Source: Candidatus Raymondbacteria bacterium RIFOXYA2_FULL_49_16 (GTDB taxonomy: Bacteria > Fibrobacterota > OXYB2-FULL-49-7 > XYB2-FULL-49-35). From it: DNA of 14,734 bases. Positions 158 through 10,392 of the stretch are shown here, in pieces. The notes beneath the pieces are model-generated. The model did no database searches. It was not told the origin of the DNA and was given only the letters and a program-made list of their open reading frames with translations. Where the stretch lies: positions 1-14,734 of the forward strand of contig MFYT01000020.1 in the NCBI GenBank assembly GCA_001789205.1. Direction: 5' to 3'. Both the position numbers and the translations under genes were made by a program. Positions within the stretch are counted from its first letter, which is position 1; each line of letters starts with the position of its first letter.

Positions 158-799
158 ATGGCATCCAATTTAAAATTTCACCGGCAATCCCATCGATTGC
201 GGGATTGGGATTACCGGACGCCAGCATCGTATTTTATTACAATGTGCACCCAGGGCAAAGTTGAATTTTTCAATGATAAAAGCACGCTGTATTTTGCGAA
301 AAAATTCTGGAAAGAAATACCCGAACGCCATCCCCATGTAACGTTGGGCGCGTTTGAATTTGTGCATAATCACATGCATGGGATCATTACGATAATCAGG
401 GACCCGAAATCATCGTTTATCGATAGGAAAAATTCATTGCAATCGGATGCAGGGGCGTCATTCATCGATAGAGGCAGCCAATTGCAGAATGACGCCCCTG
501 CATCCAATCAACACACCATACCAAACCATTGTGAATCCGGGTCAATTGGTGCCATATTGCAGGGATATAAAATGATCACCAAACGCATGATACGGTTTGA
601 TACCAAATTCCGCGATTTTGATTGGCAACGTGATTTTTGGGACCATATCATCAGGAACCAGAAAGAATATTCACGGATCACCAGGTATATTGAAAAGAAT
701 CTGGAACGATGGGAACGTGACAGGCATAACCCCATTTCCCCAAATTTTACAGCAGATGAGATATCAGAGGCAGGCAGATTGCCGTGGAATACAATGTAA
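158..799 (+). CDS. REP-associated tyrosine transposase (HUH, Y1_Tnp family)
   Basis: A 213-aa protein of the IS200/REP-associated (RAYT) transposase superfamily, which cuts single-stranded hairpin DNA through a tyrosine-DNA link. The N-terminus (RLRDWDYRTPASYFITMCT, residues 13-31) matches the family start. The metal-binding HxH is H72-M73-H74 within FVHNHMHGII; most relatives read MPNHxHG here, so H70 replaces the usual Met-Pro context. The C-terminal half has WQRDFWDHIIRN (156-167) and a YIEKN helix, whose Y177 is the probable catalytic tyrosine (Y171 is an alternative). Residues 83-116 have no family counterpart: they encode a duplicated SFIDR peptide, and 96-116 are the translation of a complete REP palindrome. 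No good ribosome binding site precedes the ATG, so expression may be low. The reading frame is intact despite the insert. Whether the enzyme is active is unknown. Confidence 0.88.
   Translation: MASNLKFHRQSHRLRDWDYRTPASYFITMCTQGKVEFFNDKSTLYFAKKFWKEIPERHPHVTLGAFEFVHNHMHGIITIIRDPKSSFIDRKNSLQSDAGASFIDRGSQLQNDAPASNQHTIPNHCESGSIGAILQGYKMITKRMIRFDTKFRDFDWQRDFWDHIIRNQKEYSRITRYIEKNLERWERDRHNPISPNFTADEISEAGRLPWNTM
413..444 (+). repeat. degenerate REP half-unit inside the transposase gene
   Basis: The segment reading TCGTTTATCGATAGG and then ATTCATTGCA resembles the left half and left flank of the REP units (TCATTCATCGATAGAGG; ATTCATTGCAG). In frame it gives SFIDRKNSLQ, echoed 15 residues later by SFIDRGSQLQ in the intact copy. 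I read it as the decayed remnant of an earlier copy placed just before the complete one. Confidence 0.5.
445..505 (+). repeat. REP-like palindrome, copy 2, in frame inside the transposase gene
   Basis: This is the most symmetric copy: a perfect 19-bp inverted repeat (GGATGCAGGGGCGTCATTC at 445-463, its complement at 487-505) around a 23-nt loop. It lies wholly inside the coding sequence and keeps the frame open, adding residues 96-116 between the HUH half and the tyrosine half. The other copies pair over only 11 bp because their right flank differs. Confidence 0.9.
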
Positions 800-4001: not shown

Positions 4002-6812
4002 ATGGTCGGAAAATTTATTGCCGTAAAGGACGCCTATATCAACGCCAATGTGTACGTAAGCAGCAAGATGACCATGAAGCCGTATGAATATCACACGACC
4101 GAACAGTACAACTCAGGCGCGGCGCCAGAACTGCGGAGCGACGGCGCATTTATCGTGCCCATACTGGGATTCGATCTTTCAGAGCTCAGAGGAAAGCGCA
4201 TAAAAAAAGCAACGCTCATTGTCCATTGGATCCATAATCCAGTACGCGAATGGGATGTGGGTACAATCAGCCATAACTGGACCGAAGGCACTGGCACTGG
4301 CCACAAATCCATAAAGATCGACGGTGTAAGTATGTGGACGTGCGCAAAGGGCATACGGTGGCCTGAGAACGGTACCTTCCATGAATTTTCTTTGGGCAAC
4401 CAGAATAGCAGACACCAGCTTGCCGTGCCCCTGACCGCGGGCGACAGGCAGGAGATTGTGCTCGATCCGGTCATGCTCTACTCGCTTGTGTATGGTGAGA
4501 ATTTCGGCCTGCTTCTGTACGACACCCGCGCTGACGTATTTACCCACCGCAGGGGATGGAACTATTTCAGCAAACCCAAATGGCTCCATTCAAGGACAAC
4601 CCGTGAACAGGGCAAGGGACCTTGTCTTGAAATCGAATATGAGGACGCGGGAACAGGACAGCTGCCGGAGATTTCCAGCCTTGAGGTTATGCACCATCCG
4701 GGAATCAGCCTTGAAAAGCGCGGCATCAAACTTTCATGGCAATGTAAAAAAAGCGGGATATTTACCCGGTTCGATATTATGTTGAACGGAAAGCGTGTTG
4801 ACCGGTATCTTACGCCTATTTGGGACGATCGTGAAGGGTGTTACGAGGCAATTCTGTACGATTGCGCGCCCGCGACCCTCTATGCTGTTGAAGTAAGCGG
4901 TTGTAATCTGCATGGAAGCAGCGGTCCTGTCTTGGCATCGATTGAAACAAGCCCGGCCCGCAAACGGCTCAAACTCACTAAAGTTAATCCAGTCTCCAAG
5001 GAACGCCCCCTGGTCCTGGCCGCCAAGGGATTGAAGGTGCATGCTTTTGATGAATTTCATAAAATTGACCCGCGCTCCGGCGCGTTGTACACCAATGAGG
5101 GGCTGGCAAAGACCCATGCGAACACTCTGGTACGGAACAAGCGCATCACCTTGCGCACGGGTCTGAACGAGGCTGTGGGCTTCCAGCTTGTCTTTGAATC
5201 GGAAAAGGGCGGGCATTTTTCAATTATCCCTTTTGGCGAATCTATTCCTCCCATCCAGTGCTTCCGGGTATGGTATCACAAGGACAAAACGCGGTACTAT
5301 CCCGACGCCTTGGTTCCTATTTCTCCGTCCCATTTTGTCTTTCCTTCAACTGACAACCGGGTGCCTGGCCAGCGCTTCCAGGCGGTATATATCGAAATCC
5401 AACTGGCTGAATACGGGGCAACCACCTACGATTTTTCATTGGCCGTGCATTGCTCAGGCGTGGTCGTGGGCTGGATACCGGTCAAACTCGAAGTGCAGAA
5501 CTTCAGACTCGACGACAGCGCGGATTTTATTTTTGAGATGAACCATTACAATTCACCCTCGATAAGGTTCGGCTTGGGACGGCAGCCCCGGGCGGCCGCG
5601 TCCGAGGAAGAGATGGGCACGGACTTCAACTTCTACCGGATGGCCCACGACCACCGGGCCGACCTTGATATTCTCGCGTACAACGCGTTTGGAGAAATTT
5701 GCGCTGACGCGGCGCCTCTTCTCGAGGGCGAAGGCGCCTCCATCAGGGTGAAGGATTGGTCGCCTTTTGACCGCAAATACGGCCCCCTTCTGAGCGGCAG
5801 CGCTTTTTCAGGATGCAACAGGACTTTACGGATAAAACAGTTTTATCTGCCCTTTTTCGAGAATTGGCCCCTGTCTTTTAAAAAATATTACAAGGTCAAT
5901 GTGAACGAGCGGCAGGAATATCTTACGGTTATGCACGAGCACCGGACAAAAGAAACCCGTATTGAGGAGGACATCGACCCCGTATATAGGCAGGGGGTCA
6001 AGAATATCATCAGGGAATTCATCCTCCACTTCGAGGAAAAGGGGTGGACCGATGTCATTGTTTTTTATTTTTTCAACAACAAATACTATTGGCGCGGCTC
6101 GCCTCACCGTGAAGGCAAGGATGTCTCCTCGTGGTGGCTGCTTGACGAACCTTTCTATTACAGCGATTGGCGTGCGCTCCGTTTTTTCGGCTCCATGCTC
6201 AATGAGGTGAAACGTGAACTGGGGGGGAAGGGTAAAAACTTCCTTTTCAGGATCGACGTGTCGTGGCAGTCGCAGTACCATCATTTTGACGGTGGCATCC
6301 TTGATGTCAATGTAGCCAGCGCAAAAAACGGGCTTGATAACGGATGGTGGTACCGCAAACGCTCGCTACTTTTCAACGAACGGTTCTGGAAATACGGGGA
6401 AGGCAATCCGCTCAACGAGCCTGACACCAACACCTACGCCAATATCATGCGCCACTATGCGTGGCATGGCGAGGGTTTTCTGCCGTGGAATTCCGTGTCA
6501 GGCAACAGTGCGTTTGACGAGGCCGATGTGCTTGCCATCATATATCACGGCATGCGTTTTGGCGTAAAAGGTCCAATCGCGTCTTTGCGGCTAAAAACCA
6601 TCCGCCGGGTCATGCAGGACCTTCAGTACGTGCATCAGGCCGCGGTCAAACAGGGGGTCGATCGCATTGCGGAAGGACATGTTATCGAAACCCTGATTAA
6701 CACCGAGGCCACTGCGCACATGGAAAATACACTGGCCGCGGGTTCCACCCGTTCAGCAATGAAAATCTGGGAACCCGCTGTATTGCGTGAAAGTTTGCGA
6801 CGCTACTTATGA
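4002..6812 (+). CDS. multidomain GH123/DUF4091-type glycosidase-like protein
   Basis: A 936-aa protein. Domain reading: residues 1-215 look like a CBM96/DNRLRE-type carbohydrate-binding beta-sandwich (VKDAYINANVYVSS, ILGFDLSELRGKRIKKATLIVHW, SHNWTEGTGTG); 225-320 is FN3-like; 350-510 is the beta-sandwich that precedes the catalytic domain in GH123/DUF4091 proteins; 515-930 resembles the TIM-barrel part. The diagnostic acidic pair is D715-E716-P717 in WWLLDEPFYYSDW. In characterised GH123 enzymes an adjacent Asp-Glu pair drives substrate-assisted hydrolysis of beta-GalNAc. The later YAWHGEGFLPWNSVSGN (about 819-836) also fits the family. Relatives are usually 500-600 aa, so about 340 residues are extra at the N-terminus. 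There is no signal peptide, and an in-frame TAG at 3975 prevents a longer start. AAAGGGG precedes the ATG. The substrate is unknown; a pseudo-enzyme cannot be excluded. Confidence 0.72.
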   Translation: MVGKFIAVKDAYINANVYVSSKMTMKPYEYHTTEQYNSGAAPELRSDGAFIVPILGFDLSELRGKRIKKATLIVHWIHNPVREWDVGTISHNWTEGTGTGHKSIKIDGVSMWTCAKGIRWPENGTFHEFSLGNQNSRHQLAVPLTAGDRQEIVLDPVMLYSLVYGENFGLLLYDTRADVFTHRRGWNYFSKPKWLHSRTTREQGKGPCLEIEYEDAGTGQLPEISSLEVMHHPGISLEKRGIKLSWQCKKSGIFTRFDIMLNGKRVDRYLTPIWDDREGCYEAILYDCAPATLYAVEVSGCNLHGSSGPVLASIETSPARKRLKLTKVNPVSKERPLVLAAKGLKVHAFDEFHKIDPRSGALYTNEGLAKTHANTLVRNKRITLRTGLNEAVGFQLVFESEKGGHFSIIPFGESIPPIQCFRVWYHKDKTRYYPDALVPISPSHFVFPSTDNRVPGQRFQAVYIEIQLAEYGATTYDFSLAVHCSGVVVGWIPVKLEVQNFRLDDSADFIFEMNHYNSPSIRFGLGRQPRAAASEEEMGTDFNFYRMAHDHRADLDILAYNAFGEICADAAPLLEGEGASIRVKDWSPFDRKYGPLLSGSAFSGCNRTLRIKQFYLPFFENWPLSFKKYYKVNVNERQEYLTVMHEHRTKETRIEEDIDPVYRQGVKNIIREFILHFEEKGWTDVIVFYFFNNKYYWRGSPHREGKDVSSWWLLDEPFYYSDWRALRFFGSMLNEVKRELGGKGKNFLFRIDVSWQSQYHHFDGGILDVNVASAKNGLDNGWWYRKRSLLFNERFWKYGEGNPLNEPDTNTYANIMRHYAWHGEGFLPWNSVSGNSAFDEADVLAIIYHGMRFGVKGPIASLRLKTIRRVMQDLQYVHQAAVKQGVDRIAEGHVIETLINTEATAHMENTLAAGSTRSAMKIWEPAVLRESLRRYL

Positions 6813-6850
6813 ACCCATCTCCCCGCAAAGGGAGAGGGGGTTAGGGGAAG
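6811..6850 (+). repeat. hairpin-forming repeat-like element at the gene junction
   Basis: Between the glycosidase stop codon and the next start lies CCC-A-TCTCCC (6814-6823), loop CGCAAA, GGGAGA-G-GGG (6830-6839): nine base pairs with one A-G mismatch, followed by GTTAGGGG. It resembles dispersed CTCCC/GGGAG repeats found in many bacterial genomes (from memory, not searched). Its right arm supplies the purine-rich ribosome binding region of the next gene, so folding could limit translation. Confidence 0.5.
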
Positions 6851-9800
6851 TGGGTTTCTTGAAATTAATCTTCGTTCTACTGCTATTAATACGGCTGACA
6901 TCATCCGTGGCGGCTTTTGACCCTCCGCCGCGCCAACTTTCGGCCTTGCAGGGAGCCAATGTCTGGGTAGGGACCGATGGCGGCCTGTATAAATACCAGA
7001 CTGACAATGAGCTCTGGAGCGTGGTGGGAAACGAACCGCTGAACGACCTGTATTTGGACGAAGACATGCTCTGGACCGCGACCAACCGCGGCGTTGCCTA
7101 CGCGGACCTCCGGTATCTTGACTGGAAAGAGTATACGTCCGCGAACGGGCTGCCCTTTGATACCGTGGTGAGCATCCGGGCTGACCTTGATTATGTGTAT
7201 GCCGCTGGCAAACGCGGCTGTGCGCGCATGGACAAGCTGGTTGAACAGTGGGTGTCTATTGGCGATTTTTCCGCCACTGAAGTACGCGACCTCTATTCTG
7301 ATCAGGACAACTTGTGGGTGGCAACCGCAAACGGCGTCCAGCGGTTCTATAAACAGTACGAGAAATGGGAATTTTTCACTGAACAAAACGGGCTTATTGC
7401 CAGCGATGTGTACCGTCTATTTTATTTCAAAGGGTATCTTTGGGCCCTTACCAGCAAGGGGTTTTCACGCTACAGCGACAAAATGAAGATGTGGAACTCG
7501 TATGGGACCAAAGATGGCCTGCTCGATACGGCGGTGACCGCCTTTTTCTGCGACGCGTCCTATATCTGGGTAGTTACCTCCCAGGGGGTCTGCAGGTTTA
7601 ACGGCGCTAATGAGGCCTGGGAGCGCTTTTCAGCCAACACGCCTCTCGAAAAACAGCGCGTGGCCGATTGCGCAACATCAGGAACGCTTTTTTGGTTTAC
7701 CACAGACCAGGGTGTGTACCAATACAACGATGATGCGCGGCAATGGGTGCTGTACACTGCCATGGATGGCCTTGGCGCTGAATCGCAGGAACGCATCCTC
7801 GCCTTTGGCAGGTCGGCCATCTGCTGGAACCAGAACGTGTTCAGCGTCTACCGGACAACCGAAGACCTCTGGTTTAGCAAGGAACTGGCCAATGCCGGTG
7901 GCGGGCGGCAGGGTGCGCGCACATGGAAAGTATCGTCCGACGAGAACGGTCTTGGCGCAACAGCGCCCTCCGGACAGCGGCTGAATCTCATTGGCCGCGG
8001 CTATTTTAAAATGAAGAGCAAAGCTGAATTTCCCTCACCCGTTGACAAGAGCGTCATGGAATATATTACCGGAACACGGCTCGATAGCGCGGGAATGCCG
8101 CGGTTCAAGGACTTTATGTACTGGTGGACCAAGGCCCAATTGAACCTGAACGGCGATCTGGGAAACGAGCGGACAATGAGAGGAGCGTATGACAATACAG
8201 ACCCGCGCGGCGACCTCAAATATGGCATGGAATACCGGGGAAACAGGGACGACAACATACGACGCGCGGGATGGCTCGAAAACCAGAAGACCGATTATTT
8301 TTTCAGCGAGCTTATTGATCCCACCTACATTGAGGGCGCGGGTGTTCGCACGCAGTTTGGGCAGGCCATTGGGGAAAAAAAGCGGCATCGGACCACTTCC
8401 AGTTTCTATGGAGGGTATCACAAAACCCGGTATGTGCGGGTCCTGGTCCCGTATAGAAAAGACAATTTTTACGAACTGAAATACCAGAATATCATTATCG
8501 AAAGCGTTGAGCTTAGAGTGGACGGCGATCTCATGGACCCCAAGGAATACAGCATTGAACGGACCATGGGCATGCTTACCTTTCAGGACGAGAGCAGGGT
8601 GAATCCTGATTCGCGCATTGAGATCACCTTTGAATACGAACCCTCCCTGACTGAAAACACGGGTGAATATATCTCGGGTGAAGAGGTTGTGGCAATCAAC
8701 GATCACCTGGCAATGGGCGCGACAGGTGTTTACCGGGGAGAAAACGAACCCAGCGCCACGGGCGGTGCCATTGCAAAGAACCGGGTTTGGGCGGGCAATG
8801 TGAACGGCGAGATAGAATTCAAATCCAGTGACAACTCAAAGATTTTCAGGGCATATCCGGAAATTTCCGGGAGCTACCAGGATTCCATTCTTGCGGTAAA
8901 GCAGGGAAATGCCGCGCACCTGCGCATGAATACGGTGTACCACGACCTGCGCGTAGAAGCTGAGGCAACGGGTTTCACGCCCAATTATGAAAGCGTACTC
9001 AATCGTAATTCCATCTTCGGCAGGACAAAGAACCAGGCTTCGGCCGAGGCGGTCTATGACATCAGGAGTGACATGCCGTTTACCGCTGGTTTCAGCCGTG
9101 TGGCAGGTGAATATGGAACTGAGGAAAAGGAGTATGCCGAATACCTGGTTTCGCCCGCGGGAAAACCCTCGCTCAAGCTGGGCGGCATGCGCCAAAATAT
9201 CCGGAACTTGGACGCGCTTCACAATGACTCTCTGGTTACGGATAGATTGAATGCCCGCGTAGAGAGTGAATGGGACGTGTCGCAGGCCTTGCTGAAAAGC
9301 CTGGGCATGAACCGGATCTGGCTCAATGCCTCCTACGATCTGGACATGATCAGCGATTCCCTGCATACCGGCGCCGCCGTGGACCTGGAGCAGGACCGGA
9401 ACCACAATCTTTTCATGCGGCTGCGGCTTGCGCCCCACCAAAAGGTCCTTCTCGAGACCAAACAAGTGTACCGTTTTGCCGAACGGAACCGCGGCGATCT
9501 CTGGGAGCGTGAAGGGGAACGATGGGGGCCGGAGTTCATCCTTTTTTCCCAGGAGTTTGTCCCCGGTGTTACCCTGTATGGCAAGTTGAAATTGGAACAG
9601 GCTGAACAGAGGGAAACCGACGATACCACCAGCATACTCGACGAGTTCCGGTTCAACGGCAATGCGCTGCTGGTTCCGGGTGTGTGGCTGCCGGTTTTTA
9701 ACCCGTTTCAGTTGAACATAGGCTACAACCGCCAGTCCGCCGACTCCTTGGTGCGCAGCGCATCCGCCGATTCCCAGGTCACGGACGATTTCGATTACAC

Positions 9801-10392
9801 CTGGTCGTTGAATCCGTCGCTCTATTTTGGGCAGGACATCAGGTTTTTAAGCAGGACCGACATTTCACGCAAGAACGCCTTTGGCGCGCAGACAGGCCGG
9901 GGGCTTAAAAACACCAATGATTTTGAAGTTTATTTCAGGGAGAGAAAGACCAAACTGCTCCTTGAATACGACTTCACCAGTGACGATGTTTTTGATTCAA
10001 CCGGTTGGAACAGCGCGAATAAGCGCCAATTCAGGGATAAGTGGACTGAACGCTGGTCCGGTAATTTCCGCACAGAACTGCAGGTAGCCTTTGGCAGATC
10101 TACGGACAGCAGCTATGCGCGCGACAATGCGTCATCATCGCTGCTTCTTGACTGTCGAACGCAGCGTTTTGTCCGCGAATTCCGTGTGCAGGAACGTATT
10201 GGCCCTGCGTTGTATGACGGCAGGTTGTTCGATTTTAGCACCTATCGGCAGTCTATCGAGAACAAGCTGGATATTTCACTCAAGGCGGGCAGGAATGTTT
10301 TTGTCAGATTGCTTCTTAATCTGACATATCTGTTCGATGAGCGGCTGCTGAAATACGATATGGCTGAATTCAAGGCCACGGCTGTTTTTTAA
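6850..10392 (+). CDS. secreted beta-propeller fused to an outer-membrane barrel
   Basis: From the GTG at 6850 the protein has 1180 aa and a clean signal peptide (GFLKLIFVLLLLIRLTSSVAA, cleaved before F23). An earlier in-frame GTG at 6787 would bury this peptide behind 21 polar residues inside the previous gene. Residues 38-345 hold seven clear blades and one degenerate one of the two-component-regulator-propeller type, spaced about 45 aa, each of the form [LVI]W-x-x-T-x-x-G-V..W (VWVGTDGGLYKY, LWTATNRGVAY, LWVATANGVQRF, IWVVTSQGVCRF, FWFTTDQGVYQY). Residues 365-600 contain segments like the repeating strand motifs of SprA-type proteins (LNLNGDLGNERTMRGAYD; VDGDLMDPKEYSIERTMGML). Residues 605-1180 are a long amphipathic-strand region ending in Phe, the classic barrel C-terminus. 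The likely location is the outer membrane, with the propeller in the periplasm or at the surface. The function is unknown; it could be a sensor, receptor or assembly scaffold. Confidence 0.78.
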   Translation: MGFLKLIFVLLLLIRLTSSVAAFDPPPRQLSALQGANVWVGTDGGLYKYQTDNELWSVVGNEPLNDLYLDEDMLWTATNRGVAYADLRYLDWKEYTSANGLPFDTVVSIRADLDYVYAAGKRGCARMDKLVEQWVSIGDFSATEVRDLYSDQDNLWVATANGVQRFYKQYEKWEFFTEQNGLIASDVYRLFYFKGYLWALTSKGFSRYSDKMKMWNSYGTKDGLLDTAVTAFFCDASYIWVVTSQGVCRFNGANEAWERFSANTPLEKQRVADCATSGTLFWFTTDQGVYQYNDDARQWVLYTAMDGLGAESQERILAFGRSAICWNQNVFSVYRTTEDLWFSKELANAGGGRQGARTWKVSSDENGLGATAPSGQRLNLIGRGYFKMKSKAEFPSPVDKSVMEYITGTRLDSAGMPRFKDFMYWWTKAQLNLNGDLGNERTMRGAYDNTDPRGDLKYGMEYRGNRDDNIRRAGWLENQKTDYFFSELIDPTYIEGAGVRTQFGQAIGEKKRHRTTSSFYGGYHKTRYVRVLVPYRKDNFYELKYQNIIIESVELRVDGDLMDPKEYSIERTMGMLTFQDESRVNPDSRIEITFEYEPSLTENTGEYISGEEVVAINDHLAMGATGVYRGENEPSATGGAIAKNRVWAGNVNGEIEFKSSDNSKIFRAYPEISGSYQDSILAVKQGNAAHLRMNTVYHDLRVEAEATGFTPNYESVLNRNSIFGRTKNQASAEAVYDIRSDMPFTAGFSRVAGEYGTEEKEYAEYLVSPAGKPSLKLGGMRQNIRNLDALHNDSLVTDRLNARVESEWDVSQALLKSLGMNRIWLNASYDLDMISDSLHTGAAVDLEQDRNHNLFMRLRLAPHQKVLLETKQVYRFAERNRGDLWEREGERWGPEFILFSQEFVPGVTLYGKLKLEQAEQRETDDTTSILDEFRFNGNALLVPGVWLPVFNPFQLNIGYNRQSADSLVRSASADSQVTDDFDYTWSLNPSLYFGQDIRFLSRTDISRKNAFGAQTGRGLKNTNDFEVYFRERKTKLLLEYDFTSDDVFDSTGWNSANKRQFRDKWTERWSGNFRTELQVAFGRSTDSSYARDNASSSLLLDCRTQRFVREFRVQERIGPALYDGRLFDFSTYRQSIENKLDISLKAGRNVFVRLLLNLTYLFDERLLKYDMAEFKATAVF

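Follow-up and report, generated by a model that had tools for sequence, protein, structure and literature searches.

An in-frame REP hairpin in the predicted variable loop of a REP-type transposase gene of Candidatus Raymondbacteria, and its counterparts in relatives from many phyla

The DNA analysed here, referred to as the window, is a stretch of 14,734 nucleotides of contig MFYT01000020.1 from Candidatus Raymondbacteria bacterium RIFOXYA2_FULL_49_16. The forward-strand open reading frame at 158-799 encodes a protein of 213 residues that, judged by profile and fold, is a REP-type Y1 HUH transposase (RAYT, or TnpA_REP) with predicted cleavage activity. In an alignment of 69 sequences, His72 and His74 of its HUH motif (NHMH, residues 71-74, codons at 368-379) are invariant, while Trp156 and Gln157 (623-628) and Tyr177 (686-688), the putative catalytic tyrosine by homology, are at least 90% conserved. 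A profile built from 69 relatives matched a single PDB entry, 4er8, with an E-value of 1.6e-8; this entry is TnpA_REP in complex with a REP hairpin. The AlphaFold model of the protein (mean pLDDT 80.9) also has 4er8 as its top Foldseek match (E-value 1.9e-6), followed by the IS608 and ISDra2 transposases. These matches bear out the assignment as a REP-type transposase made in the preliminary description. The match to the NCBIfam family REP_Tyr_transpos (NF047646) is sub-threshold, at 37 bits for a cut-off of 80, and no Pfam family, PF01797 (Y1_Tnp) included, matches 158-799 at 1e-3. A paralog in the same genome, L007, likewise stays under the PF01797 threshold, and together these shortfalls indicate that the models fit this branch of RAYTs poorly.

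Nucleotides 445-463 (GGATGCAGGGGCGTCATTC) and 487-505 (GAATGACGCCCCTGCATCC) are the 5' and 3' arms of a perfect inverted repeat of 19 bp on the forward strand, separated by a loop of 23 nt (464-486, ATCGATAGAGGCAGCCAATTGCA) that is near-identical in the flanking copies. The hairpin lies between the HUH half and the tyrosine half of the gene, with a GCAG foot on either side, and is translated in its entirety into the peptide SDAGASFIDRGSQLQNDAPAS, residues 96-116 of the RAYT protein. The complementarity of the arms and the open reading frame across them confirm that an in-frame hairpin is present inside the transposase gene, as originally noted. Folded as RNA, the hairpin reaches −42.4 kcal/mol (z = −8.2), a value equalled by none of 200 shuffled sequences; the corresponding shuffle test for DNA gives z = −8.0. 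An Rfam search of the window returned zero matches.

In the AlphaFold model, the strand formed by residues 72-79 is followed by an unstructured stretch, residues 100-119, with pLDDT values below 50, and then by the helix of residues 130-148. Residues 83-94, ahead of the hairpin-encoded segment, are modelled as a helix of lower confidence. The model thus suggests that the hairpin encodes a variable loop, probably disordered, outside the core. Residues 83-116 had been put forward as the encoded segment and as a loop; the loop is retained, while the span is narrowed to residues 96-116. The two findings that would have spoken against this proposal were not encountered: the segment is predicted to be unstructured and outside the core fold, and the relatives contain no REP-free version of the 83-116 peptide.

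Three more REP copies on the forward strand flank the gene, one upstream at about 36-91 and one downstream at about 815-870, both with GCAG and GTAC feet, and a second downstream copy at about 902-957. The 11-bp stem GGGCGTCATTC/GAATGACGCCC and near-identical loops are common to all four window copies. The proposal that the in-gene hairpin is a copy of the gene's own REP family is supported. In the genome stretches read, the family has about 30 or more copies, with an invariant 11-bp stem, a loop of 22-24 nt and one foot that is mostly GTAC, the other being GCAG or GTAG. The RAYT gene is thus flanked by REPs that are also dispersed through the genome; by loop sequence, the RAYT-adjacent copies and those of contig 11 form one subfamily. 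Nearly all family copies lie outside open reading frames of at least 100 residues, the exceptions being a copy in the tail of a DUF2961 reading frame that spans an N stretch and two more in reading frames just over 100 residues long. The 91 nucleotides at the contig start (1-91) and those at 867-957, behind the RAYT gene, are 99% identical, and the contig end at position 1 is probably a break within the REP repeat; several other contigs seem to end alike.

Elsewhere in the window, a perfect 18-bp stem with a T tail on the minus strand (1024-1066) resembles a terminator and is placed to serve the minus-strand reading frame 1088-2554. Two large reading frames, 4002-6812 (936 residues) and 6787-10392 (1201 residues), are without a Pfam family, the latter having only a weak, sub-threshold NCBIfam match.

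Counting the window gene, the same genome contains four intact RAYTs of this type, with four different in-gene REPs: GGGCGTCATTC in the window, GTAGGGGCATTATGC in L006, GTAGGGGTTCAAAA in L007 and GTAGGGGCGGGTTT in L009. The palindromes of the three paralogs are in frame, in the same region of the gene as the window hairpin, and have GTAG feet; each recurs elsewhere in the genome, that of L007 in just a single further hairpin. In the tree, L006 and the window gene are sisters (support 100), and the L006 hairpin differs from the window hairpin in both core and frame, being read as CGT AGG GGC ATT where the window has GAT GCA GGG GCG. In the reading frames of three Y1 genes of other types from this genome (L205-L207), no inverted repeat with a score of at least 10 was found. 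The L007 gene, with its in-frame palindrome, is located between cas4 and cas1-cas2 (162-2774 of the L007 stretch, G000 contig 15, 57671-61267), all on one strand, in what resembles a type I-C CRISPR adaptation operon; inverted-repeat units resembling a CRISPR array are found nearby.

An in-frame REP in a RAYT gene is not as unusual as was first supposed. Quentin et al. (2018; PMC6006769) describe TnpA_REP genes of subclass 2.4 that carry in-frame REPs, generally between HuH and Y, in a variable region that forms a peripheral extension, and the arrangement is a common state of that subclass, published since 2018. By its sequence, the window gene appears to be a divergent RAYT related to subclass 2.4 (RAYT group 4). 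It shares with the subclass, as described in that report, the in-frame REP between HuH and Y, a variable insert between beta3 and alphaC, the WQ motif and the flanking REPs. Two other motifs are each one or two residues off, NHMH standing for NH[IFV]H and YIEKNL for YIxNNP. The feet also differ, the window family having GTAC and GCAG or GTAG instead of the double foot GT[AG]G...C[TC]AC and, set against subclass 2.4, the window REP is a stem with a 23-nt loop. The E. coli TnpA_REP (4er8, subclass 2.2), in which the WQ motif lies within the GTAG-recognition region (PMC6006769), resembles the window protein in its HUH-Y1 fold and its REP flanks. According to Quentin et al., however, the in-gene REP is a trait of subclass 2.4 and not of 2.2, and E. 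coli REPs, unlike those of the window, have a bulged stem (PMC8266576).

Palindromic repeats inserted in frame are also on record for other genes, as the Rickettsia palindromic elements and as the intragenic REPs of Di Nocera et al. (2013; PMC3733652); more than half of these insertions add 20-30 residues. There the hosts are unrelated genes, whereas in the window the host is the cognate transposase. Biochemical work on groups 2 and 3 (PMC8266576) reports that single-stranded REPs are recognised and that the tetranucleotide matters for their cleavage; one of the enzymes could bind a REP with a GCAG foot but barely cut it. If the same held for the window enzyme, the in-gene copy would be bound but not cut.

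The arrangement was followed in 128 relatives from many phyla, the contig-derived ones having been found via patterns in the HUH half and not via the loop; plasmid searches yielded few relatives, all distant. An inverted repeat with a score of at least 10 is present between the HUH motif and the tryptophan in 100 of the 128 genes, and in the preceding control segment in 5; at a score of at least 12, the numbers are 75 and 1. For a subset of 71 genes, the mean score is 12.5 in the real loops and 6.6 in codon shuffles. The core 11-mer is also found in the flanks of its own locus for 38 of 89 genes, compared with 1.8% of the flanks of loci with another core, which indicates, at the level of sequence, that an in-gene hairpin belongs to the REP family of its own locus. 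The GTAG foot starts at codon position 1 in 51 genes, at position 2 in 18 and at position 3, the one that would make TAG a stop codon, in none. Five identical 14-mers each occur in two frames, giving different peptides; a conserved protein domain in the loop is ruled out by these differences in frame and peptide. On the tree of relatives, which is poorly resolved (137 columns), the minimum number of changes is 43 for the core (with 42 cores), 15 for the frame and 16 for presence. The distance from HUH to W is 72.5 residues with a hairpin and 62 without, about 10 residues longer, which is close to the median hairpin length of 30 nt among the relatives. The recurrence of the core, the changes of core and frame and the added length all fit repeated local REP insertion. 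The RAYT loops of L056, L018 and L076 contain half-REPs in tandem within the coding sequence, for instance ELHSPENAN repeated, GVQNIEPNKNIV and LHCNVS; in L076, a half-REP run also lies directly ahead of the start codon.

For 121 genes, the coding loop could be compared with the neighbouring non-coding DNA. A REP is present in the loop of 73 (60%), in the 200 bp upstream of 29 (24%, the boundary being approximate, as start codons are guessed) and in the 200 bp downstream of 21 (17%); at 200-400 bp from the gene REPs are rare (2%). Genes with a REP only in the loop outnumber those with one only upstream by 50 to 6, with a p-value of about 1e-9 that assumes independent genes and is nominal, since they are not fully so. 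Footed palindromes reach 0.86 per kb in RAYT genes and 0.03 per kb in other reading frames of at least 150 residues. This ratio of 26 is a lower bound, because a few of the palindromes assigned to "other" reading frames belong to RAYT genes that the motif search did not pick up. Intragenic REPs do occur outside RAYT genes, though rarely; GTAG-footed palindromes were seen in other large reading frames at L025, L029, L059, L071 and L088. To our knowledge, and as far as the text of the reports consulted goes, the preference of REPs for the coding loop over adjacent non-coding DNA is new. Since the loop is richer in REPs than its non-coding neighbours, mere tolerance of insertions is inadequate as an explanation; the enrichment requires either preferential targeting of the loop or selection on the copies there.

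With somewhat better than even confidence, we take repeated REP deposition at a favoured site in the RAYT loop to be the best explanation. REPs spread by the RAYT would land repeatedly beside its gene and also in the gene's own variable loop, between beta3, where the HUH half ends, and alphaC, where the tyrosine half starts. Given the predicted disorder of the loop and its distance from the active site, copies there would survive as long as their length is divisible by three and GTAG is not read in the frame that gives a stop; old copies would decay and be replaced by the REP family that the enzyme currently serves. What the data show is the presence and frame of the hairpins, their match to the local family, the turnover of sequence and frame and the predicted disorder of the loop. 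That the enzyme itself performs the insertions, and that the loop is enriched as a favoured target rather than through selection on the copy, is what we infer from this pattern. The state of the palindromes agrees with it: the best footed 14-bp palindrome has 0, 1, 2, 3 and 4 mismatches in 40, 17, 13, 3 and 9 genes, respectively, and such partial decay fits turnover under at most moderate constraint. A chance palindrome or an assembly artefact has a negligible probability: the contig does start inside a repeat copy, so that its upstream end is not assured, but the folding scores near z = −8, the dispersed copies in many contigs and the same arrangement in three paralogs and about 100 homologs rule it out.

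The synonymous sites count against repeated insertion. In shared hairpins, 239 of 273 synonymous third positions (88%) are conserved, compared with a mean of 58% in the catalytic core, in pairs that overlap and were picked for recognisable hairpins. This, the local family identity of the hairpin, its presence in most relatives from many phyla, the Watson-Crick pairing of 1521 of 1565 base pairs and the excess in the loop over adjacent non-coding DNA, which also counts against passive survival, would be expected if the in-gene REP were a cis element kept for a benefit to the RAYT locus. TnpA_REP might bind the hairpin in its own single-stranded DNA or nascent message and so limit its own synthesis, or a protected copy might keep enzyme and substrate linked and co-evolving. 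We regard such a selected element as possible but rather unlikely, as about one-fifth to two-fifths of relatives, depending on the criterion, lack a clear hairpin, many copies are partly decayed, and sequence and frame turn over among relatives. Mismatches on the coding strand (15 GT versus 7 AC) give no clear sign of constraint at the RNA level through GU pairs, and the literature searched yielded no evidence of autoregulation by an in-gene REP. That the loop peptide is what functions, with the palindrome incidental, is very improbable: the loop is of similar length in most members, but the same hairpin encodes unrelated peptides in two frames, and the peptide is unconserved in a segment predicted to be disordered.

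In many phyla, the same DNA thus serves as a mobile palindrome and as part of the gene for the enzyme presumed to spread that palindrome; the data presented here on this point exceed those in the text of the original report (PMC6006769). More tentatively, the coding-loop REP may be a functional and near-obligatory part of the locus that is preferred to neighbouring non-coding positions and renewed as the REP family changes, in which case the gene and its message would carry a hairpin recognised by the encoded enzyme, for self-limitation or for matching enzyme to substrate. Were the copy functional, it would provide a simple test of what keeps REPs matched to their transposases, a question of REP evolution.
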